24,634 nucleotides of DNA from a virus, in IMG/VR virus record IMGVR_UViG_3300046323_000127, positions 1 through 24,634 of that record. One strand, written 5' to 3'. Each line of letters opens with the position of its first letter. Within the stretch, counting starts at the first letter, position 1. Below the pieces are notes generated by a model. That model searched no databases. It was not told where the DNA came from and saw only the letters and a program-made list of their open reading frames with translations. This document shows, piece by piece, positions 17-24,634 of the stretch. The position numbers and the translations under genes were made by a program.

Positions 17-667
17 TTGTCTGATTACACAAAACTCACATCGTTTGACACCAAGGACGCCTTATCAACAGGTGATCCATTGAAGCGTGTCAAGGGAACA
101 GAGCTGGATGATGAATTTGATGCCATTGCTACAGCCGTTGCTACTAAGGCTAACAGTGCTTCTCCTGCCTTTACGGGCACTCCTACAGGCCCAACAGCTA
201 CAGCATTAACCAGCACTACACAGCTGGCTACAACAGCTTTTGTTCAGACAGCTCTTCAGGTGTTGTATCCAGTAGGAACCATCTACACCAACATTGCTGT
301 CAGTACAAACCCTGCCACCTTGTTTGGCTTCGGCACATGGGTTGCCATTACAGGGCGTGTTGTTGTTGGTCTAGATAGTGGTGATGCCTCCTTTGACACT
401 GTTGGTGAAACAGGCGGTAGTAAAGATGCTATTGTTGTAAGCCATACTCATACAGCGACAGACTCCGGACACACTCACGGCGTTCCAACATATTCTGGCT
501 GGGTGAACGGTGGAAACATTGACGGACGTGCTGATGGTGGTTACTATAGAGATGTGGCAACAACTACAGGAACTGCAAACATCTCTGTCTCAACAACAGG
601 CTCATCTGGCACTAATGCTAACTTACCTCCATACGTAGTGGCCTATGTTTGGAAGAGGGTTTCGTGA
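17..667 (+). CDS. Short tail fibre / tail collar protein, gp10 C-terminal type
   Basis: A 216-residue virion protein, probably part of the tail fibre or collar and so likely to act in host recognition. Residues 49-76 resemble the short phage tail-fibre repeat (SPAFTGTPTGPTA followed by TTQLATTAFV). From about residue 84 the pattern YPVGTIY...LFGFGTW...GRVVVG, a VGETGGS turn, HTH pairs near 143 and 152, and a PPYVVAYVWKR end match the phage tail-collar / T4 gp10 C-terminal fold. The start is TTG at 17, chosen because AAGGAG stands seven bases upstream and no better start follows. The upstream neighbour lies outside the window. The stop overlaps the start of the next gene (GTGA). The family is clear; the exact receptor role is inferred. 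Confidence 0.85.
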   Translation: MSDYTKLTSFDTKDALSTGDPLKRVKGTELDDEFDAIATAVATKANSASPAFTGTPTGPTATALTSTTQLATTAFVQTALQVLYPVGTIYTNIAVSTNPATLFGFGTWVAITGRVVVGLDSGDASFDTVGETGGSKDAIVVSHTHTATDSGHTHGVPTYSGWVNGGNIDGRADGGYYRDVATTTGTANISVSTTGSSGTNANLPPYVVAYVWKRVS

Positions 668-1068
668 AGTCAGTTGTTTGTAAGTTTTGTAATAAAGACT
701 TTGAAGCAACTAGAAGTGATGCTATCAGATGTCCTGCTTGTCGAGAAGAATATTTAAAAGAATATCGGCGAAAAGATGAAACAAAGCTAAGGCGTCGAGG
801 CCAGACAAGAAAACTTAGGGAGCAGGCACTAAACGGTTACGGTCACAAATGTGCTTGTTGTGGTGAAACCAGATTTGAATTTTTAGCAATAGATCACGTC
901 AATGGTGGCGGTAGGAAAGAAAGAGAAACAATGTCTCCTAGTCAAATAGCAAAAAAAGCAATTAACGAAGACTTTCCGCCAATGTACCAACTATTGTGCC
1001 ATAACTGTAATTGTGCTAAAGGCTGGTATGGGATTTGTCCACATCAAACCGAAAAGCGTACAGCGTAA
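664..1068 (+). CDS. HNH-family endonuclease with N-terminal zinc ribbon
   Basis: Probable site-specific DNA endonuclease of the free-standing homing type. With the GTG start at 664 it has 134 residues. Cysteine pairs at about 6/9 and 23/26 form a zinc ribbon. A second set, C63xxC66 and C112xxC115, brackets an IDHVNGGG motif (D77, H78) typical of HNH / recombination endonuclease VII-like nucleases. GTG at 664 overlaps the tail-fibre stop as GTGA and follows an AGAGGG box. An upstream TTG at 649 would add five residues inside the fibre gene and is less likely. Its place between virion genes suggests a mobile intruder. The family call is firm; activity is not shown. Confidence 0.75.
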   Translation: MKSVVCKFCNKDFEATRSDAIRCPACREEYLKEYRRKDETKLRRRGQTRKLREQALNGYGHKCACCGETRFEFLAIDHVNGGGRKERETMSPSQIAKKAINEDFPPMYQLLCHNCNCAKGWYGICPHQTEKRTA

Positions 1069-5953: not shown

Positions 5954-7663
5954 TTAAGCGTGACAAGCTACACATTCACCAGAGCTGGCACTAACGCCTG
6001 CCTTGGTACGTACATAATATAAGCTCAAGATGTTAGCATCTTTGAAGGCATACTTATGAACAGCACTGATGTATTCCTCTGGATCATCAGCACCGAAGAA
6101 CAAGTTGATTGACTGCCCTTGGCAGAGAAGACGCTGACGCTCTGAAGCTTGCTGCAACAAAGCATATTGATCAATCTCAAAGGCTGTCAAGAACACCTTC
6201 TTCTCTGCATCAGTAAGCCAGAACAAGTGTTGAACAGAGCCATCATGGCTAGCAATGTCTAACAACGTCTCACGGCTATACACACCTTCACGCTTCATAA
6301 TCTCAAGCAGCTCAGGCACTACACGGATGGTTTCACCTCCTGCACCTTGTTGTACAAAGACATTACCAATGAAGGGTTCAATCCCTTGGGATACTCCACC
6401 CATGAGTTGGGAGGTTGACATTGTAGGTGCAACAGCCAATCGGTGAGTGTTTCGCAGCCCAAGTCCTTTACAGTATTCAGGTTCACCAAGAGTAGTTGCG
6501 AGGTATTGGCTTGCACGTTCAGAGTCCTTGTTAAGCTGTTTAAAGATGTCGATGTTAAGCTTACGAGCCTTGTAGTCATCAAAAGGAATCATTTCCTTAT
6601 GCAACAATGAATGCCATCCCAACACACCTAAGCCCAATGCACGGCTCTTCTTGGTGCTTGCAATGGCCTTCTCAAAGCCTCGTTTCCCCTTAGCCATAGA
6701 CAAGAACTCACTGGTCACACAGTCAAGGAACACAGTGGCTACAAACACAGCATCTGTATCTTTCCACTCACGGTATTTCTCTAGGTTCATAGAAGCCAAG
6801 ATGCATGTGAATGTTTCTGTCTCTCCGCTATGTAACATAATCTCAGTGCATAGGTTAGAAGCCTTAACATCCAAACCATGCTGCTTATAGGCCTCTGGAC
6901 GGGCCTCAGCCACCTTATCGGTGAAGAAGAAGTAGCCCTTACCTGTCAGCATCTTCAGCTTCAAAGCCTTCTGATAACGCTCTACAGCCTCTGGATGGCC
7001 TGAATCAAGAGCTTCCATAAACTCCTTGCTCACTGTCCAGCCTACGTTAGCATCATCTGGATTGTTCTTAACCCAATCAGCCAACTCATTGAAGTCTGGA
7101 TGATCAATAGGCAAGTAACCAGCCCATGCACCTCTACGAGCAACACCCTGTGTCACTCGCTTCATAGCATCTACATACGTTTGAAAGACTGGCAATACTC
7201 CCGAAGCAGTACCACCAGTACCGATTTGGGAGCCTCGGGGTCTAATGTCTCCCAGATAGCCGCTAGTACCGAAGCCGTTTTTAGTAAGCACAGCTGTATC
7301 AAGAAGCTCGCCATAAAAGTCAGCAACGCTGTCACCAATATACTGCCCACTGCAAGCCACAGGCATCCCTTTAGCAGTGCCAAGGTTAGCCAACGTAGGC
7401 GTTGAAGGGCTAAGCCAGCCGTTCCATATAACTTCATAAAATTTACCTTTCCAATCTGTACCGTCTTTAGGGGCATGTTTAGCAGCTGTCTCTGCAATTT
7501 GTTCTGCACGATGTTTGAAGGAAGTGCTTCCCTCCATATAGCGTGTTTTAAACAATTGCCAAGCACCGGTGGTGTACCACTCAGGAAGAACTGCCTGCTG
7601 TTGCAGTCGTTTTCGTTCTGCGCTTAAAAAATCGTATTTGTTTTCAATGATAGGTGTACTCAT
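5954..7663 (-). CDS. nrdA: Ribonucleotide reductase class I, large (alpha) subunit
   Basis: Reduces ribonucleotides to deoxyribonucleotides for phage replication, with the beta subunit encoded upstream. It has 569 residues, short for NrdA because the N-terminal ATP-cone is absent. Visible landmarks are C104 in PVACSG and C287 in TFTCILAS (active-site redox pair), N270-L-C272-T-E274 (radical cysteine with its Asn and Glu partners), GLGVLGWHSLL at 344-354, PTMSTSQLMGG at 413-423, Y549-Y550 (radical relay) and the C-terminal C564-V-A-C567 swinging redox pair. ATG at 7663 overlaps the stop of the HNH gene as ATGA. Loss of the ATP-cone suggests that overall activity is not shut off by dATP, which would suit a lytic phage (inference). 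Confidence 0.95.
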   Translation of the reverse strand: MSTPIIENKYDFLSAERKRLQQQAVLPEWYTTGAWQLFKTRYMEGSTSFKHRAEQIAETAAKHAPKDGTDWKGKFYEVIWNGWLSPSTPTLANLGTAKGMPVACSGQYIGDSVADFYGELLDTAVLTKNGFGTSGYLGDIRPRGSQIGTGGTASGVLPVFQTYVDAMKRVTQGVARRGAWAGYLPIDHPDFNELADWVKNNPDDANVGWTVSKEFMEALDSGHPEAVERYQKALKLKMLTGKGYFFFTDKVAEARPEAYKQHGLDVKASNLCTEIMLHSGETETFTCILASMNLEKYREWKDTDAVFVATVFLDCVTSEFLSMAKGKRGFEKAIASTKKSRALGLGVLGWHSLLHKEMIPFDDYKARKLNIDIFKQLNKDSERASQYLATTLGEPEYCKGLGLRNTHRLAVAPTMSTSQLMGGVSQGIEPFIGNVFVQQGAGGETIRVVPELLEIMKREGVYSRETLLDIASHDGSVQHLFWLTDAEKKVFLTAFEIDQYALLQQASERQRLLCQGQSINLFFGADDPEEYISAVHKYAFKDANILSLYYVRTKAGVSASSGECVACHA

Positions 7664-8130
7664 GTTCTCGCAAATTCTCCGTGAAATTGTTTCGTTACTT
7701 CTTTAGCCACAGCTGTTGCTTCTTCAAGTGAAGGATAAGTTCGAGCAAAGACAAGTTTCTTGTCAGCCGTCACCCGCACAACCCATTTGTTGTAAGTATT
7801 ACACCAAGAAACATTTTTGTATCCTGAAGTGTTCTTTCCATGTAGAGCATTATACATGTTTTGAGTTCTATTAGCCTCTCTAAGATTATCAAAAGAATTA
7901 TTAGCTCTATCTCTGTCCTTATGGTCTAAAAACTCTTCAGGCCATTTACCAGTATTGAGCCACCATACAATATGATGAACTCGAATCCTTTTTCCAAGTA
8001 CACTGACAAGTCTATAGCCGCCATCGTTTAACCACCCAGCTATTCGATTTTCTCTGCTATCCCATAGATCTTTACCTTTACATACAAACCGAGATCTAAT
8101 CTCTTGTTCATGCCTTTCTTCAACTACCAT
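7660..8130 (-). CDS. HNH endonuclease with AP2-like DNA-binding domain, between nrdB and nrdA
   Basis: Probable homing-type endonuclease, 156 residues from the ATG at 8130. An HNH_3-type core has H52-H53, D69-H70 (FLDHKDRDRANN) and a conserved FDNLREA segment near 80-86. It is followed by NTSGYKNVSW at about 100 and an AP2/integrase-like DNA-binding fold to about residue 150. ATG at 8130 was preferred over 8151 because GAAAGG stands six bases before it; it overlaps the nrdB stop. Its own stop overlaps nrdA. Free-standing endonucleases lodged between or in nrd genes are known in other phages (mobE in T4-like phages), so a selfish element targeting a conserved nrd site is plausible. Confidence 0.85.
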   Translation of the reverse strand: MVVEERHEQEIRSRFVCKGKDLWDSRENRIAGWLNDGGYRLVSVLGKRIRVHHIVWWLNTGKWPEEFLDHKDRDRANNSFDNLREANRTQNMYNALHGKNTSGYKNVSWCNTYNKWVVRVTADKKLVFARTYPSLEEATAVAKEVTKQFHGEFART

Positions 8131-9080
8131 ACAAAACCTTTCTCGTTCCATTTTCTGTGATATTGATTGCCAACCTTGGCAAAGAAGTCATGGATAGTAG
8201 AAGTGCTAATACCCAAGTAGAACCACTCAGAGATTGTATCACCTTCTTCGTCAAAGAGAGGATCAAAACCTAAGTTGCTCAAGCAGATGTTAGCACGAGA
8301 ATTAACAAAAGCTTTCATGGCTGTTGCATTAATTCCTTCAATGTCTCCTTGTGAGAACAGAAGGTCTACAATGCGGTGCTCATGGTCTACCAAAGCCTTA
8401 GCAGCCTTATTCACTCGCTCTTGCATCCAAGCCTTGTCCACCTTGTTCTCTTCCATGTAGGTACGGAAAAGCCATGAGCTGCCTTCGTGGTGGATGTTCT
8501 CATCACGCACAGAGAAGTTGATGCCTGCCACCAAGTTGCTCAGCTTGTTCTTACCATTGCTCTGGAAGTGCTTCAAGAAGGCAAAGCTGGAATAGAGAAC
8601 ACAGCCTTCCATCAAGGAGAACACAGCCAATGACAAGGGCAAATCTTTACCGCTAACAATGCTGTCGAGGTAGTCAATGCGACTAGCCAACACAGGGTCA
8701 TATTGCCACGAATGATGGAACTCTTCTGTTGCAAGGCCTAACAGCTCATTGATACGGTTGTAGAAACGAGCATGTACGTTGCTCTCAAAGTAACAGAAGG
8801 CATCAGCCATCAGCTCAATGTCAGGATGCTGGAAGCTGGGCTTAACAACACCAGACCAATATTCATTACCAACAATCAGTTCATACTTGGTGAACAGCTT
8901 CAAGGCCGTTGTAACACCATGTCGTTCAGCGTGGGTGAAGTCAGTGAGGATGCTATGTACATCCTTCTCTAAGTCAATCTCATCAAAAGTCCAGAAGACA
9001 CCATTCTGTTTGTCTGCAAAGGCCAGAGCCTCTGGGTAGTCAAACGTGTATGAAGTCTTCTTTGTCAGCAGGTTTCTCAT
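8124..9080 (-). CDS. nrdB: Ribonucleotide reductase class I, small (beta) subunit
   Basis: The radical-generating partner of NrdA, 318 residues, ferritin-like fold. Candidate metal ligands are E67 in KYELIVGNEYW, H103, E158 in SLMEGCVLYSSF, and E194 and H197 in RDENIHHEG. Y107, four residues after H103, occupies the place of the radical tyrosine (Y122 in E. coli). The second-helix signature is FESNVHARFY, so the acidic residue (E99) is four positions before the histidine instead of the usual three. ATG at 9080 overlaps the stop of the preceding 52-residue gene as ATGA. It is separated from nrdA only by the HNH gene. Class I is clear; the metal site subtype is open. Confidence 0.93.
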   Translation of the reverse strand: MRNLLTKKTSYTFDYPEALAFADKQNGVFWTFDEIDLEKDVHSILTDFTHAERHGVTTALKLFTKYELIVGNEYWSGVVKPSFQHPDIELMADAFCYFESNVHARFYNRINELLGLATEEFHHSWQYDPVLASRIDYLDSIVSGKDLPLSLAVFSLMEGCVLYSSFAFLKHFQSNGKNKLSNLVAGINFSVRDENIHHEGSSWLFRTYMEENKVDKAWMQERVNKAAKALVDHEHRIVDLLFSQGDIEGINATAMKAFVNSRANICLSNLGFDPLFDEEGDTISEWFYLGISTSTIHDFFAKVGNQYHRKWNEKGFVW

Positions 9081-12126: not shown

Positions 12127-12484
12127 ATTCTTTCCTTTCGTCTTTCTCTTGTTTTGTCTTAACTAGATGGCACTCTTTACAGAGCGTTTGCATGTTTTTC
12201 TTGTCACAAAAAAGACGATTAATATAATCATCCCATGATGTAAATCCTCTTTTAGGGTCAATAACAGGCCTAATGTGATCTACTTCTACGTCTTTAGCTA
12301 CAAACTCATCATTGCACTCAGCGCACCGATAATGCTGAGCGAGTCTTCCTGTCTTGACATTAACTTTCTTCTCTGTTTTAGAATCGTTAAGTGTTTCATA
12401 CTTTGGAGGATAGCGGCGAGAAGCTGAGCGTAAAGCAGATGTAACAAAAGCTCTCCAGCGTCCTTCAGTCCATGGCTTGTACAA
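12056..12484 (-). CDS. HNH endonuclease, CxxC zinc type
   Basis: An HNH nuclease of about 142 residues. It has an Arg-rich start with WTEGRWRAFVTSALRSASRR, C54xxC57 (YRCAECNDEF), VEVDHIRPV with D69-H70, SWDDYINRLFC and C102xxC105 (LCKECH). This order is the classic zinc-stabilised HNH fold. No ATG precedes the domain; a TTG at 12484 with GGAG ten bases upstream is the likely start, though TTG at 12532 is possible. It overlaps the preceding HNH gene by 20 bases and the following gene by 71. Other phages carry similar genes that may act in packaging or as homing nucleases; the role here is not determined. Confidence 0.75.
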   Translation of the reverse strand: MYKPWTEGRWRAFVTSALRSASRRYPPKYETLNDSKTEKKVNVKTGRLAQHYRCAECNDEFVAKDVEVDHIRPVIDPKRGFTSWDDYINRLFCDKKNMQTLCKECHLVKTKQEKDERKEYGKTKGQQEPAKAKPRATRARNK

Positions 12485-12908
12485 GGTCTTTGAACTCCAT
12501 ATAAGCTGAATGGGCTTCCTCAGCAGTTTCAAACGTTCCTAAATGAATCAGTCCACGCACAGTTCCTAGACGAGCTGTGAATTTTCTTCCTGATCTAGAA
12601 ACACCAAGGAATCCAGTAGTTGAGTTTTTATGGGCCTTCTTCTTATTATACATGTTTTTAGACTGAGTAACATCACGCAAATTACATATACGGTTATCGT
12701 CTTTGATACCGTTTATGTGATCTATCTGTCCTGTAGGCCAGCTCCCGTGGTAAAAGAACCAAGCCAAAATATGTTCTTTGTATCTCTTACCTTTAAACAT
12801 TATTCTACGATAGCCTTTACAGGAATCGGAGCCGCCTGCTCTTGTGTCTGTAGAACACCTAAAGAAAAACCCAGTCGTAGGGTCATAGAGTAAATCATTT
12901 ATTTTCAC
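12465..12908 (-). CDS. HNH endonuclease with AP2-like DNA-binding domain
   Basis: A 147-residue probable homing endonuclease from GTG at 12908, starting MKINDLLYDPTTGFFF. The HNH_3 core includes H46 in KEHILAWFFYHG, D63-H64 in IDHINGIKDDNR and N76. NSTTGFLGVSRSGRKF near 95-110 starts an AP2-like domain ending at about residue 143. GTG at 12908 was chosen because GGAGAG precedes it by five bases and the frame then begins exactly at the domain; longer ATG starts would lie far inside the metallopeptidase gene. It has the same architecture as the endonuclease between nrdB and nrdA, implying related mobile elements in one genome. Confidence 0.8.
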   Translation of the reverse strand: MKINDLLYDPTTGFFFRCSTDTRAGGSDSCKGYRRIMFKGKRYKEHILAWFFYHGSWPTGQIDHINGIKDDNRICNLRDVTQSKNMYNKKKAHKNSTTGFLGVSRSGRKFTARLGTVRGLIHLGTFETAEEAHSAYMEFKDLVQAMD

Positions 12909-13206
12909 CCACTCTCCACAGTTGTACAAACGTTTGGTGGAGGAGGTTTCCAAAGGCTTCAACTTCTCGTTCATCGTGTCCTGTCTCTCCCATTGTAAAT
13001 TTAATTGCATGTACCAACTCGTGAAAGAAGGTTGCTTCAATTGCCTGTGGAGACATATTCTCTTTAAGAATAATTTCATACGTCATGGGGTTACATGTCC
13101 CCATCTCTGTAATGTCCTTGCTAAGAGAAACTGTCCACTTACACCCTGCTAGGTAGAAGGTGCTGTAAATAGGAGAAGCTACGCTCTTTGGTCTGGTGGA
13201 AGCCAT
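12895..13206 (-). CDS. Small HExxH zinc metallopeptidase-like protein
   Basis: A 103-residue protein with F61-H62-E63-L-V-H66 followed by an EREVEAFGNLLHQ helix, which offers a Glu about 15-17 residues downstream as third zinc ligand. This matches minimal ImmA/IrrE-like or SprT-like peptidases. No signal peptide is seen, so it would act in the cytoplasm; possible targets are a repressor or a host protein (inference). The ATG at 13206 overlaps the exonuclease end by 28 bases; the ribosome-binding site is weak (AAGAGAAC), suggesting coupling. The fold call is good, while the substrate is unknown. Confidence 0.75.
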   Translation of the reverse strand: MASTRPKSVASPIYSTFYLAGCKWTVSLSKDITEMGTCNPMTYEIILKENMSPQAIEATFFHELVHAIKFTMGETGHDEREVEAFGNLLHQTFVQLWRVGENK

Positions 13207-14401: not shown

Positions 14402-14594
14402 GAGTATTCACCACTCTGTCAAGTGTTTGTCTAGTAACCATGTTGGCAATAGTGCTATTAAGGATGTTAATCACCTCTTCTTCACTGTCAAAAGGGCTAT
14501 GAACAAGGATGAGTTGTCCGTCCTTAACGAAGATGTGAAGAGATGTGTCGCATTCCTCAGACAGCTTACGCATTGCTTCTTCAGTGTTTTCCAT
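14391..14594 (-). CDS. Hypothetical phage protein, 67 residues
   Basis: An acidic helical protein beginning MENTEEAMRKLSEECDTSLH, then a short beta segment (IFVKDGQLILVHSP) and a helix ending in VVNTRLQ. The ATG overlaps the DNA polymerase stop by one base (TAATG), so it is coupled. Unlike nearly all neighbours it ends well before the next gene; the vacant stretch is open in another frame (see 14327-14401), so the annotated C-terminus may be false. Function unknown. Confidence 0.6.
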   Translation of the reverse strand: MENTEEAMRKLSEECDTSLHIFVKDGQLILVHSPFDSEEEVINILNSTIANMVTRQTLDRVVNTRLQ

Positions 14595-16384
14595 TAATGG
14601 GTTTCCTTCCAGTTAGCACCAACATTGTATTCGCCGGAAACAGGGCAGAACAGCTTCAGTTCCACTCCTGCCTCTTCAATGGATTGTACAGCAAGTTTGC
14701 CCACAGCATCAGCATATTGTTTCTTTGTTTCAATCTGCCATTCATCATGAACATTAGCACAGAACCCGTGAGGAATCTTATGCTTATGTAGGTGATTGCT
14801 AAGAATTACCAACGCTTTCTTCATCACAATTGCGCCAGCCCCTTGAAGCAAGCTATTGAGTGCTGCATGTTCACTGCGAACCCAAATCTTTCTACCATCA
14901 AGGCTCGGTACATAGCCCTTGGACGCGACCACGGATACCTTATCACGTAAACGCTTGAGCGCGGGAGTCCTCGCAAGAAAGGTATCGATGAGCTTTTGTC
15001 CAGCCGTAGCACTACCACCGACAATCGCACCAATCTTCGAGGCCCCTGCCCCATATAAAAAGGCGTAGGCAAATGTCTTCGCTTGATCACGTGTTTGTAG
15101 ACCGGCTGCTTTTTGATTAACCGTGTGGACATCCGTACCATCTTTAGAGCTTCCCTCACAGACAGTTTTGACATAGTCTTCATCCTTCATGTAATGGGCC
15201 AACATACGCAGCTCAAGGCCACTAGCATCAGCACCTACTAACACATTGTCCTTGTCCACTGTCCATAGCTCACGGCATTCAGGGCCATAAATGGAACCAC
15301 TGTTAGGCACTTGAGCCATGTTAGGAGAGCTATGTGTCATGCGGCCTGTTACAGCCCCATTGGTGTTCACTCGTCCATGTACACGACCATCATCCTTCAC
15401 CTCCTCAAGCCAGCTAGACACCTGAGCTACACGTTTCTGTAGCATCAAATATTCCAGCAAAGCCTTAGCCTCTGGCAGATCAATGTTCTCCAACACCTTC
15501 TCGTCCACAATGATGGAGCCCTTGTCTGTTGTCTTAGAGAATTCAACACCAAGCCCTTGGAGGCGCTCAGCGATTTGTTGACGAGAGCCGGGGTTGAAAG
15601 GGATGATACGCTTCTTCATAGGGCCAGCCATTGCTTCATCTGCTAATGAAGCCTTAAAGCCTACCTCTTTAAGAATGCGTTTCAGCTCTGCCTTAGTCTC
15701 TGCCTGACAATCACCAATCTGCCAATAAGCAGGCTTCTTCATCTCTTCGATGGTAGGCGGGAAGATGTCCTGTAGCTTGCCTTCAATATCCACCATCTTG
15801 CCAGACAGAGACGCCAGTAAGCCCTGAGCTTTCGGAATGTCAAGTTTAAAACCATGTTCATGCTGTTTATAGACGATTATAGCGACTTCGTGTTCAAGTT
15901 GTCGGCACTCCTGTGAGAACTTCTCTTGGTCTAGCATCTTGTCAATAAGCTTCTCTACTTTTACAAGCACAGCTACGTCTTGTTGACAATATTCATACAT
16001 CAAGGGAAGAGAGGGATTGTCATAGCAATTACCCTCTAAACCTAGTTCTTTCCATCGTTGCTCATAATCAATCTTCTTCTCTCCCACTCTTTCGCCCCAA
16101 GCTTTCAGGCTGTGGCCTCCGTCTAAATTTGGATTGTATAGACGAGACAAGATCAAGGTATCTTTCGCCTTCTTCGCTGGTATCGTCACGTTCCAGCACT
16201 TCCTCAACACTGGCCCATCGAAGCCTATCAAGTTGTGTGCGATCACTGTTTCGGAGCTTGCGATTAAGGGTGTGAGTGTATCCGCTGTTTTGTGACATAC
16301 ATATCCATTGGTTTCATCATAAGTGAAACAACACCAAATCAAGTCGTGAGTTGTTGTTGTCTCAATGTCTAGATAGAGTTTCAC
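14594..16384 (-). CDS. DNA polymerase, family A, with 3'-5' proofreading domain
   Basis: The replicative polymerase, 596 residues, T7-like. Proofreading exonuclease motifs are D6-I-E8, N51...D56 (AHNLIGFDG) and Y132xxxD136 (YCQQD). Polymerase motif A has D386 in VGADASGLELR; motif B runs R432...K436...Y440 in RDQAKTFAYAFLYG; motif C is H546-D547-E548. Y440 takes the place of Phe762 in E. coli Pol I and Tyr526 in T7, the residue governing dideoxynucleotide discrimination. The start is GTG at 16384, five bases after GGAG and overlapping the upstream stop (GTGA). At about 600 residues it is shorter than T7 gp5 (704) but keeps both active sites. Confidence 0.96.
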   Translation of the reverse strand: MKLYLDIETTTTHDLIWCCFTYDETNGYVCHKTADTLTPLIASSETVIAHNLIGFDGPVLRKCWNVTIPAKKAKDTLILSRLYNPNLDGGHSLKAWGERVGEKKIDYEQRWKELGLEGNCYDNPSLPLMYEYCQQDVAVLVKVEKLIDKMLDQEKFSQECRQLEHEVAIIVYKQHEHGFKLDIPKAQGLLASLSGKMVDIEGKLQDIFPPTIEEMKKPAYWQIGDCQAETKAELKRILKEVGFKASLADEAMAGPMKKRIIPFNPGSRQQIAERLQGLGVEFSKTTDKGSIIVDEKVLENIDLPEAKALLEYLMLQKRVAQVSSWLEEVKDDGRVHGRVNTNGAVTGRMTHSSPNMAQVPNSGSIYGPECRELWTVDKDNVLVGADASGLELRMLAHYMKDEDYVKTVCEGSSKDGTDVHTVNQKAAGLQTRDQAKTFAYAFLYGAGASKIGAIVGGSATAGQKLIDTFLARTPALKRLRDKVSVVASKGYVPSLDGRKIWVRSEHAALNSLLQGAGAIVMKKALVILSNHLHKHKIPHGFCANVHDEWQIETKKQYADAVGKLAVQSIEEAGVELKLFCPVSGEYNVGANWKETH

Positions 16385-17899: not shown

Positions 17900-18049
17900 T
17901 TACACCTTCAAGTTAATAAACAAACCCACCTGAGCAAAGGCATAACCAATCCACATGATGCCAGCCCCTGTGTCTCCTTTGAGCCATTGCATTGTACCAA
18001 CAATGGCATAGCCAAAGCCAATGGTTCCTACAATTAGTTGTTCAATCAT
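17900..18049 (-). CDS. Small membrane protein, 49 residues, two predicted helices
   Basis: Two apolar segments, IVGTIGFGYAIVGTM (residues 6-20) and IMWIGYAFAQVGLFI (31-45), are linked by QWLKGDTGAG, which fits a helical hairpin in the inner membrane. Its ATG overlaps the primase-helicase stop as ATGA. Small hydrophobic proteins next to replication genes are common in phages; roles could include anchoring replication or altering host membrane proteins. A holin role is less likely without a lysis enzyme nearby. Confidence 0.75.
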   Translation of the reverse strand: MIEQLIVGTIGFGYAIVGTMQWLKGDTGAGIMWIGYAFAQVGLFINLKV

Positions 18050-19641
18050 AATGTTTCTTCCTCACGTTCAGACATACGGCCTGTGTGTTTATTGTACAAC
18101 AGCTTACAAGCAGGGCCAGTGATACCACTAAAGCGGTTCTTTAGCACACGCACCTTGGTTGTATTACGCTCTGTAATGTCTTCTGCCTGTCCATTACGCT
18201 CAAGACCAATCACCATGTCTGACAGCTGTGCAATGGAGCCTGAGCCACGCAGCTGAGCCAAGGATGTAGCAGCTCCCTCTTCATGTCCTTTGTCGCTTGG
18301 ACGTTTCAAATGGCTCACCACAATGAGAGCAATGTTTGTCTCTTGCACCAACATACGAAGCTTGGTCATAATTTCATCAATTGCCTTGCGTTCATCACCA
18401 CTCTCTTGTGCTGACACAATGATTGAGATGTGATCAAGAAAGACATATTTACATCCCATGCCCTTGGACAAGAAACGTACACGGTTGATGATGTTGTCAA
18501 TGGAGGTGCTACCGAAGTGATCAAACAAATAGAGACGTTCAGTGCCTAATGTGGCATCAAAGGCATCCTTACGTTGTTCATCAGACACTTCTACATCAGG
18601 CAAATGCAGAGGCATGTTAGCTGACATGCTCATAATGGACAAAGCTGTCTTCTTAACACTTTCCTCAAGGAACATCAAGCCAATGTTGTCCTTTGTCTTT
18701 TGCAAGATGTGCCACACCACTTCACGTAGCACTTGGCTCTTGCCTAAGCCACTACCAGCTGTGATGGTTACAAGCTCACCAGCACGAATGCCATAGGTGA
18801 GCGTGTTAAGCCCTTCCCAAGGGTAGGTGCAGTCTGCCTTAGCCATAGGCTTTGACACTTCTTCCCACAGGCTAGAACCAGCCACAATGCCATCAGGTAC
18901 AGCTGTCTCTGCTGCCCACCAACGATCAATAAACTCCTTCTCTTTCCCTGCTACAAGGAAGTCACAACCGTCCTTGTATCCGTCAACCCCCTTGAACACT
19001 TTCACCTTGCCTGAGAACAAAGCAGCCACTTGTTGTGCAGCTTGGTTACCAACAACATCATTATCAAAGCAGACAACAATGTTCTCAAAGGAGGAAATCC
19101 ATTCATAGTGTTCTTTGCAGTCTTTTGCAGCCCCACCAGCACCATTACGAATGGAGACAACGGGCCACTTACTGCCAAGCATTTGATACACAGCCAAGGC
19201 ATCATATTCACCTTCAACAATGGTGAGGTATTTACCGCCCTTGGTGAACAGCTGTTGTCCGAACAAGCCGGCTCCCTTCCATTCACCCGTGGTGCTGAAA
19301 GCCTTAGCAGCAATAGAACGCTTCTTAGCTGCCACCAGCTTGCCTTCATTGAAATAGGGGAAATAGACATCATCAGAAGAGGCTACAACGCCATACTTCT
19401 CCACAGAGGCCTTAGAGATGCGTCTGGAGGCAATGGAAGGGCTAGGAAGGCCTGCAAGGGACGCACGTAGGGAATCCACTGCCTGTGCGTTGAAGGGCTT
19501 CTCTTCTACTAATGTGTTCATCTCTGTGCTCTGGGTTAAGTTGTTACAGACAAAGCAATAGGTGCTTCCATCTGCATTGATTGAAAGGCCATCACTGCTT
19601 TGGCAGCTTGGGCACGGTTGGTGTGTCTTTACGAACGCCAT
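18046..19641 (-). CDS. Primase-helicase, T7 gp4-like
   Basis: Unwinds DNA and makes primers at the phage fork; 531 residues. A zinc-binding primase domain has C10-P-S-C13 and C29-F-V-C32. The TOPRIM fold shows E143-G-E-Y-D147 and FDND at 192-195. The RecA-like helicase domain shows Walker A at 295-302 (AGSGLGKS), Walker B FLDH at 401-404, a QLRGSGSIAQLSD segment at 463-475 for DNA contact, and NRFSG near 502 with a candidate arginine finger. ATG at 19641 follows GAGGAAAACA. The upstream 52-residue gene overlaps it by 50 bases. All active motifs are intact, so the protein should combine both functions as in T7. Confidence 0.96.
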   Translation of the reverse strand: MAFVKTHQPCPSCQSSDGLSINADGSTYCFVCNNLTQSTEMNTLVEEKPFNAQAVDSLRASLAGLPSPSIASRRISKASVEKYGVVASSDDVYFPYFNEGKLVAAKKRSIAAKAFSTTGEWKGAGLFGQQLFTKGGKYLTIVEGEYDALAVYQMLGSKWPVVSIRNGAGGAAKDCKEHYEWISSFENIVVCFDNDVVGNQAAQQVAALFSGKVKVFKGVDGYKDGCDFLVAGKEKEFIDRWWAAETAVPDGIVAGSSLWEEVSKPMAKADCTYPWEGLNTLTYGIRAGELVTITAGSGLGKSQVLREVVWHILQKTKDNIGLMFLEESVKKTALSIMSMSANMPLHLPDVEVSDEQRKDAFDATLGTERLYLFDHFGSTSIDNIINRVRFLSKGMGCKYVFLDHISIIVSAQESGDERKAIDEIMTKLRMLVQETNIALIVVSHLKRPSDKGHEEGAATSLAQLRGSGSIAQLSDMVIGLERNGQAEDITERNTTKVRVLKNRFSGITGPACKLLYNKHTGRMSEREEETL

Positions 19642-23359: not shown

Positions 23360-23698
23360 TTAAAACACTTGGTAAACCAGCTCACCATCAGTGGCCTCGC
23401 CTAAATAGGCGCTGTTGTCTTGGATGTACTCAATCACGGCTTGCTTGGCTTCATCATCATCTAGGCCCGCTAAGTCGATGGAATAATCAGACGCTATATG
23501 GGTGTAATGCTCCGCGTTATAGTCGCAACAAATGGCAATGACATCCAGCTCAATATCGGCGCCCGTTTCCTCTTCATATTGCTCTAAATAGTTATAGATT
23601 ACTTTGAGAGCTTCGTATCCGTAACCATCGTAACGGTCAAAACGTTTGAAGGCGTCGATGAAGTCATTGAAGTTGATTGATTGTTTACTGTTATACAT
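23360..23698 (-). CDS. Conserved-looking phage/plasmid protein, 112 residues
   Basis: Acidic protein with FNDFIDAFKRFDRYDGYGYE, then ALKVIYNYLEQYEEETGADI, the marked segment ELDVIAICCDYNAEHYTHIA and an end with TDGELVYQVF. I recall this ELDVIAICC-D-Y pattern from small proteins of phages and mobile elements; the function is not known to me. A role in counter-defence is possible given its acidic nature and place in the early-type cluster, but that is speculation. ATG at 23698 follows AAAGGG. Confidence 0.75.
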   Translation of the reverse strand: MYNSKQSINFNDFIDAFKRFDRYDGYGYEALKVIYNYLEQYEEETGADIELDVIAICCDYNAEHYTHIASDYSIDLAGLDDDEAKQAVIEYIQDNSAYLGEATDGELVYQVF

Positions 23699-24015: not shown

Positions 24016-24129
24016 TTACAGTGTAACCCCAAACATAAGGGCAAAGAGGCCCATAATGGCAACGAAGTATACAAGGCCCAATGCTACATTGAGCAGGGCG
24101 TTAAGGGCGAGAGCTTTAGGTGTTGGCAT
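24016..24129 (-). CDS. Small membrane protein, 37 residues
   Basis: After a short MPTPKALALN head comes one long apolar segment, LLNVALGLVYFVAIMGLFAL, followed by MFGVTL: a single membrane helix. AAGGAAACCATC precedes the ATG at 24129. Second gene of the early-type unit after the sigma-54-like promoter. A role at the host inner membrane early in infection is likely in general terms; a specific target cannot be named. Confidence 0.65.
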   Translation of the reverse strand: MPTPKALALNALLNVALGLVYFVAIMGLFALMFGVTL

Positions 24130-24143
24130 GATGGTTTCCTTGA

Positions 24144-24242
24144 TTAGTTAAACAATGCACAATGTACCAGATAACCAGACAATGCTGGAATGGCAAATAG
24201 TGAAATTGTGATGATGATTGTTTCAATATCAAACTTAGTCAT
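24144..24242 (-). CDS. First early-type gene: membrane peptide, 32 residues
   Basis: Reads MTKFDIETIIITISLFAIPA followed by LSGYLVHCALFN: a charged head, then one membrane helix. AAAGGGCTAAACA precedes the ATG at 24242. It is the first gene downstream of the sigma-54-like promoter, whose predicted start point leaves a 31-base leader. Its place implies that it is among the first products of this unit. No homologue is recognised. Confidence 0.6.
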   Translation of the reverse strand: MTKFDIETIIITISLFAIPALSGYLVHCALFN

Positions 24243-24283
24243 TGTTTAGCCCTTTGAAGGTTAGTTGGTGATGCAAGATATAT

Positions 24284-24299
24284 AGCAAACACCGTGCCA
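24284..24299 (-). promoter_or_regulatory. Sigma-54 (-24/-12) promoter, leftward
   Basis: The minus strand reads TGGCACGGTGTTTGCT, which fits the RpoN consensus TGGCACG-N4-TTGCW at every fixed position, with GG and GC exactly 12 bases apart. The predicted start is near 24273, giving a 31-base leader with AAAGGG before the first gene at 24242. Such promoters need an ATP-driven enhancer-binding protein, and candidate sites lie about 100-160 bases upstream. Confidence 0.8.
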
Positions 24300-24385
24300 A
24301 CCATTGTTTTGTAATGCTTATTGTTTCATTGTTTATTATTCTCAACTATTATTAAACCTTTTGGCTTCTTGTGCCTATTATTTAA

Positions 24386-24443
24386 GCACTGCATTTTGGT
24401 GCATAGATCACTGTGTTGGTGCATTAATGCACAAGGTTGGTGC
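24386..24443. promoter_or_regulatory. Clustered NtrC-like enhancer sites
   Basis: TTGGTGC occurs at 24396, 24416 and 24437, spaced 20 and 21 bases, so on one face of the helix. The third belongs to GCACAAGGTTGGTGC (24429-24443) and the second to TCACTGTGTTGGTGC (24408-24422), both close to the NtrC dyad GCAC-N7-GTGC of enteric glnA enhancers. A perfect palindrome GTGCATTAATGCAC (24419-24432) bridges them. The first copy has a poorer partner (GCAC at 24386). Confidence 0.6.
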
Positions 24444-24450
24444 TTTTGGT

Positions 24451-24466
24451 TGGCATGGAAGTTGCA
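24451..24466 (+). promoter_or_regulatory. Sigma-54 (-24/-12) promoter, rightward
   Basis: The plus strand reads TGGCATGGAAGTTGCA, one base away from TGGCACG-N4-TTGCW, with correct GG to GC spacing. The predicted start is near 24477. It would serve a plus-strand gene beyond the window, giving a leader of at least 157 bases. The NtrC-like sites end eight bases before it, closer than usual for an enhancer, so some sites may act on the leftward promoter only. Confidence 0.6.
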
Positions 24467-24522
24467 TAGCGTCACCTTGATTGTGGCTGATAAGGGTGCA
24501 CCTTTGCCCCTCACCTTTGAGT

Positions 24523-24566: not shown

Positions 24567-24634
24567 ATGAAGGCCCGGGGGAGGGGGACAGCGTGTGTAA
24601 ACTATTGGTGTACCCTACCAGATACAAAAAAAGG

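Follow-up and report, generated by a model that had tools for sequence, protein, structure and literature searches.

Analyses of a 24,634-nucleotide stretch of viral DNA (positions 1 to 24,634 of IMG/VR record IMGVR_UViG_3300046323_000127; referred to here as the window) indicated that a host sigma-54/NtrC unit very probably drives the early genes of this phage, and in its sub-clade the late side as well, from a divergent control region. The evidence consists of the sites themselves, their spacing, direction and conservation in relatives, and their match to the NtrC grammar. Based on the sequence, we propose that positions 24144–24477 make up the divergent control region at the center of a lytic-type phage. 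The window is a fragment from a virus record, and the late arm, which lies beyond its end, was read from a relative (L003).

Predicted Sigma-54 Promoters and Gene Layout of the Window

The predicted leftward (early) sigma-54 promoter, TGGCACGGTGTTTGCT at 24284–24299 on the minus strand, has no mismatches to TGGCAYRNNNNTTGCW. Its GG (24298–24297) and GC (24286–24285) have 10 nt between them, and it conforms to the GG-N10-GC spacing with the TGGCAYR-N4-TTGC consensus, bearing out an earlier sequence-only reading that had called it a consensus-perfect site with exact -24/-12 spacing. Counts of GG-N10-GC across the window carry no information. Perfect sites on both strands of the whole window numbered two, against 0.076 expected under an order-1 Markov model, and both lay in one divergent intergenic region, in agreement with the earlier judgement that a chance match was unlikely. 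The second perfect site, absent from that reading, is TGGCATGGAAGTTGCA at 24451–24466 on the plus strand, divergent from the leftward site and approximately 150 bp from it. This predicted rightward (late-side) promoter, also with no mismatches and with a predicted start at approximately 24477, points to terminase genes past the window end. Late-side perfect sigma-54 sites were present in relatives L004, L005, and L006 too.

The leftward site is intergenic, and the gene that it precedes has a ribosome-binding site. Its predicted start is at approximately 24273, and the first ATG, at 24242, opens a gene for a 32 aa hydrophobic peptide (24144–24242, minus strand). A Shine-Dalgarno-like AAAGGG (24255–24250) lies 7 nt ahead of this ATG, consistent with the ribosome-binding site that had been described after the predicted start. 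The distance of 31 bases that had been given for the unit holds only from the predicted start to the ATG; measured from the site to the ATG it is 41 nt.

The second small leftward gene (24016–24129, minus strand) encodes a membrane-type peptide of 37 aa. In L102, a peptide resembling it comes after the promoter, and this 37–39 aa micropeptide, with the conserved core VYFVAIMGLFAL, is in both cases among the first early genes. Further along the minus strand are a 112 aa early protein of PHROG 9974 (23360–23698), which served as the homology anchor for finding relatives, a DNA primase-helicase (18046–19641) and a family A DNA polymerase (14594–16384). The small genes are thus followed by replication genes, including a 5'-3' exonuclease and ribonucleotide reductase as well as a thymidylate synthase, and the leftward unit is early-type, as had been claimed. 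Three HNH endonuclease-like genes were also observed in the window (649–1068, 7660–8151, and 12465–13079), one of them adjoining the gene for the ribonucleotide reductase large subunit. A search for a T7-like RNA polymerase found none, but the positive control gave no match either.

In L003, the 112 aa early protein is identical to that of the window and the promoter region is the same, and its sequence extends approximately 3 kb beyond the window end. Its rightward arm carries a large terminase gene and, where a small terminase would be expected, a 131 aa ORF, which indicated that the two sigma-54 sites of the window face the early and late arms. At 24570–24634, the window has a block resembling CCCGGGGGAGGGGG ... 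GTACCCTACCAGATACAAAAAA that is common to most relatives read (L024, L048, L077, L082, L097, L299, L365, and L403). It lies after the control region and before the terminase genes and may be a terminus or a packaging site (cos/pac).

The strongest alternative is that the sigma-54 promoter is secondary and conditional, with basal early transcription arising from sigma-70 promoters and sigma-54/NtrC boosting it only under nitrogen limitation. L080 and L098 have sigma-70-like sites 170–330 bp downstream of their sigma-54 sites, and TTGACA...TAGAAT was noted by eye downstream in L024 and L134, both of which are consistent with such an arrangement. However, there was no strong sigma-70-like site in the region of the window or in most relatives (6 found versus 3.0 expected in 20 regions), and we consider this explanation unlikely, while giving it appreciable weight.

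NtrC-Type Sites Between the Promoters

The sigma-54/NtrC reading, which we prefer, draws on a set of repeats lying between the two promoters that the sequence-only reading had not included. TTGGTGC starts at 24396, 24416 and 24437, a helically phased spacing of 20 and 21 bp. The copy at 24437 completes a perfect NtrC-type palindrome of the form GCAC-N7-GTGC (GCACAAGGTTGGTGC, 24429–24443), the only perfect palindrome in the window, and the copy at 24416 completes a second, imperfect site with one mismatch (TCACTGTGTTGGTGC, 24408–24422). The third is a half-site on the plus strand (24396–24402). Measured from the leftward start, the centers of the perfect, imperfect and half-sites are at approximately -163, -142, and -122; measured from the rightward start, they are at approximately -41, -62, and -82. 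The leftward promoter therefore has the two or more phased sites 80–200 bp upstream that are seen in NtrC-activated promoters. Compared to the more extended form GCACYA-N3-TRGTGC, the outer bases of the window palindrome are perfect and its right half fits, with an A instead of Y at base 5.

The same grammar occurs at E. coli glnA and glnK and at nitrogen genes of Pseudomonadota. As at E. coli glnAp2 and glnK, the -24/-12 site of the phage region is preceded at helical distances by GCAC-N7-GTGC palindromes (-109/-141 for glnA and -88 for glnK). Unlike the E. coli promoters, the phage region is phage-borne and faces replication genes, its enhancer distances in the family are mostly longer (-109 to -208), and the same enhancer would also be used in the window by another, divergent sigma-54 site.

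Conservation in Relatives

Homology to the 112 aa early protein, the terminase and the primase was used to collect 178 viral loci. For the family test set, regions upstream of terminase homologues were chosen by protein homology alone and dereplicated to 43. These regions contained 33 perfect sigma-54 sites, compared to 0.25 expected, and 31 of the 33 faced the early genes. Conservation in relatives, which had been put forward as a check on the leftward promoter, was thereby confirmed, with a perfect site missing in 22 of the regions and a perfect palindrome missing in 27. In diverged relatives, perfect or 1-mismatch counterparts were found at the same place and in the same direction, with variation in the N4 spacer bases.

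An anchored test was also performed, in which regions were chosen by their palindrome, with no promoter required, and searched for a sigma-54 site with at most one mismatch 60–200 bp to the early side. Such a site was present in 14 of the 15 palindrome regions (0.03 expected), and none was on the opposite strand. The palindromes of relatives occur at fixed, phased distances, at -135/-165 in one group and at -146 with -176 or -186 in another. A decoy pattern in which the palindrome follows the promoter was also scanned for. Many of its matches were control regions with palindromes between promoters, so it did not provide a clean null, and the dereplicated and anchored tests took its place.

The architecture was not universal. 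In L004, the early protein is 90% identical to that of the window, yet the leftward site is degraded and has lost the consensus. No such control region (perfect site plus palindrome architecture) was found in the eight cultured or environmental relatives checked: Vibrio J2, Vibrio 1.157.O, HTVC115P, Caulobacter RW, DSL-LC04, 023Pt_psg01, a MedDCM record and a Manatee Spring record. In several relatives, perfect or near-perfect sites also occur within the primase gene and approximately 400 nt past the terminase gene; we discounted these as probably coincidental matches in coding sequence.

Searches against phage records by megablast and tblastn identified no close isolate. A scan of genome contigs by terminase alignment, intended to find the host, was rejected because all of its matches were phage contigs that had been binned into MAGs from unrelated groups. 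The MAGs that contain relatives L181–L184 carry the labels Verrucomicrobiales, Sphingobacteriales, Acidimicrobiaceae, and Crocinitomicaceae; these placements are very likely binning errors.

Probable Identity of the Activator

Calibration on E. coli K-12 showed that the same two patterns recover glnAp2, with palindromes at -109 and -141 and a sigma-54 site with one mismatch, and glnK, with a palindrome at -88 and a perfect sigma-54 site. The two were combined for bacterial genomes into a single grammar of a palindrome, 55–85 bp, and a sigma-54 site. This grammar gave 22 matches in 299 Pseudomonadota genomes, versus one for the reversed control, and no matches in 99 Bacteroidota genomes. The ten located Pseudomonadota matches precede genes for PII proteins (two; glnK/glnB), glutamine synthetase (three; glnA) and solute-binding transport proteins (five). 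Pfam confirmed the PII and glutamine synthetase assignments and placed four of the transport proteins in general binding-protein families and the fifth in none; by our own reading, two of the transport proteins are urea-type and two are nitrate-type.

The middle bases of the phage palindromes, which were not selected for, agree with the NtrC consensus of E. coli, and the GCACYA-N3-TRGTGC form accounted for 53% of 164 control-region palindromes, compared to 3% of 60 palindromes elsewhere. In addition, no AAA+ sigma-54 activator domain (PF00158) was identified in 29 family records, many of them fragmentary, with the control positive in 14 of 14 genomes. From this absence we infer that the activator would be the host's, and it is probably the host's NtrC. 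The sequence-only reading had predicted dependence on host enhancer-binding proteins; the upstream NtrC-type sites, together with the lack of an activator in the 29 records, support this predicted dependence in a more specific form.

It could instead be that the sigma-54 promoters are real and the activator is not NtrC, being either another host enhancer-binding protein that reads a site resembling GCAC-N7-GTGC or a set of sub-clade-specific activators. One sub-clade (L058, L062, L082, L095, and L098) indeed has two to three tandem perfect sigma-54 sites and no palindrome, and a palindrome was found within 300 bp at just 2 of 118 tandem-site viral loci among the matches listed. In palindrome-bearing phages, however, this explanation is at odds with the NtrC-like unselected bases and with the nitrogen-assimilation genes that the grammar pulls out in bacteria, and we judge it improbable.

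Extent Among Viral Contigs

A scan of all viral contigs identified 27 with two palindromes and a sigma-54 site, some of them from phages whose terminases are only distantly related, L201 being an example. The number of perfect palindromes in a control region reached five in L365 and seven in L212. Tandem pairs of sigma-54 sites were found at least 120 times in viral contigs versus 2 for a reversed decoy, a ratio that is rough because the reversed pattern differs in dinucleotide make-up. At the new tandem-pair loci among the matches listed, the pair was outside any long open frame in 86 of 118.

Some contigs had arrays of perfect sites within short control regions: 13 in L265 (7749–8719), 11 in L260 (3065–4098), 9 in L443 (3441–3621), 8 in L429 (19–256), and 6 in L472 (1663–1854), with sites on both strands in L443 and L265. 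Since NtrC palindromes are mostly missing from the arrays, as from the tandem-site loci listed (present at 2 of 118), the arrays may depend on a different activator or have some other role.

These arrays, facing both ways in two contigs, and the clusters of DnaA-box-like TTATCCACA in the same region of several relatives could indicate that the TGGCAY-N5-TTGC sites are not promoters, and are instead bound by a phage protein for replication or partition or act as decoys that tie up the sigma-54 polymerase of the host. We regard this as very unlikely for the window family, where the sites occur singly or in small numbers, are directional, keep fixed distances to the NtrC sites and have the exact GG-N10-GC spacing that is the sigma-54 signature, with, in the window, a location close to the first early gene. 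Although random single -24/-12 matches do occur and the one-palindrome pattern has considerable background in so large a collection, chance resemblance is refuted at the family level by the excess of sites in the dereplicated, anchored and tandem-pair counts.

Proposed Mechanism and Known Systems

Sigma-54 promoters require an activator and ATP for opening and are normally silent before a signal. In the sigma-54/NtrC mechanism that we favor, host RNA polymerase with sigma-54 would bind the leftward -24/-12 site as a closed complex. Host NtrC, phosphorylated under nitrogen shortage, would occupy the phased GCAC-N7-GTGC-type sites 120–165 bp upstream and loop over, leading to open-complex formation and leftward transcription of the early and replication genes. 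The second sigma-54 site of this sub-clade would share this enhancer and fire toward the terminase and late genes.

Replication genes behind a promoter that is silent without a signal would let a host nutrient sensor decide infection. As the promoter is of the nitrogen-starvation type and the layout is common to many relatives, infection may be tied to host nitrogen supply. A broader reading, which we hold tentatively and rate a little short of evenly balanced, is that a large guild of uncultured Pseudomonadota phages has lytic replication gated by NtrC/sigma-54 and activated with ATP. Infection by these phages would be conditional on, or boosted by, nitrogen starvation, possibly self-triggered through a glutamine drain, and some of the viruses would have multiplied the sites into arrays of 6–13. 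Replication genes under a sigma-54/NtrC promoter would create a direct link from nitrogen limitation to viral lysis, testable with reporter genes. Such control would also limit the hosts to bacteria that carry rpoN and ntrC, a restriction that might aid the culturing of these phages.

No precedent for sigma-54/NtrC early control in phages was found in the open-access subset of the literature searched, in which the closest precedents both came from cyanophages: NtcA sites identified by prediction (PMC3037559) and Pho boxes that had been tested (PMC10976474). In T4-like cyanophages, phage genes are likewise predicted to be under a host nitrogen-stress regulator, with sites scattered over many genes (PMC3037559). 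However, NtcA is cyanobacterial and is not a sigma-54 activator, whereas here the predicted sigma-54/NtrC unit is in the central early control region. Pho boxes at promoters of cyanophages P-SSM2 and S-PM2d are bound by the host regulator, as determined by gel shift for S-PM2d, in a study that also cautions that motif prediction by itself was unreliable (PMC10976474). That system similarly places a host nutrient-stress regulator at phage promoters, but it concerns phosphate and PhoB.

The closest cultured phages by primase and polymerase were Pelagibacter phage HTVC115P and its relatives, at 46–55% identity. In the 50 kb of HTVC115P read, there was no perfect sigma-54 site or palindrome. SAR11 hosts are not known to have RpoN.

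Other motifs were observed in the control regions of relatives. The TTATCCACA clusters adjoin sigma-54 sites in L102, L009, L097, L077, L056, L048, and L055, and a control region with such clusters may double as a replication origin. In L097 (150–700), two copies of the palindrome GTTCCATGTGGAAC, which is close to bacterial parS sites, are next to tandem sigma-54 sites. In L212 (627–1297) and L350 (3588–4069), the Fur-box-like GAGAATGATTCTCAT, or a near match to it, lies among the sigma-54 sites and palindromes.
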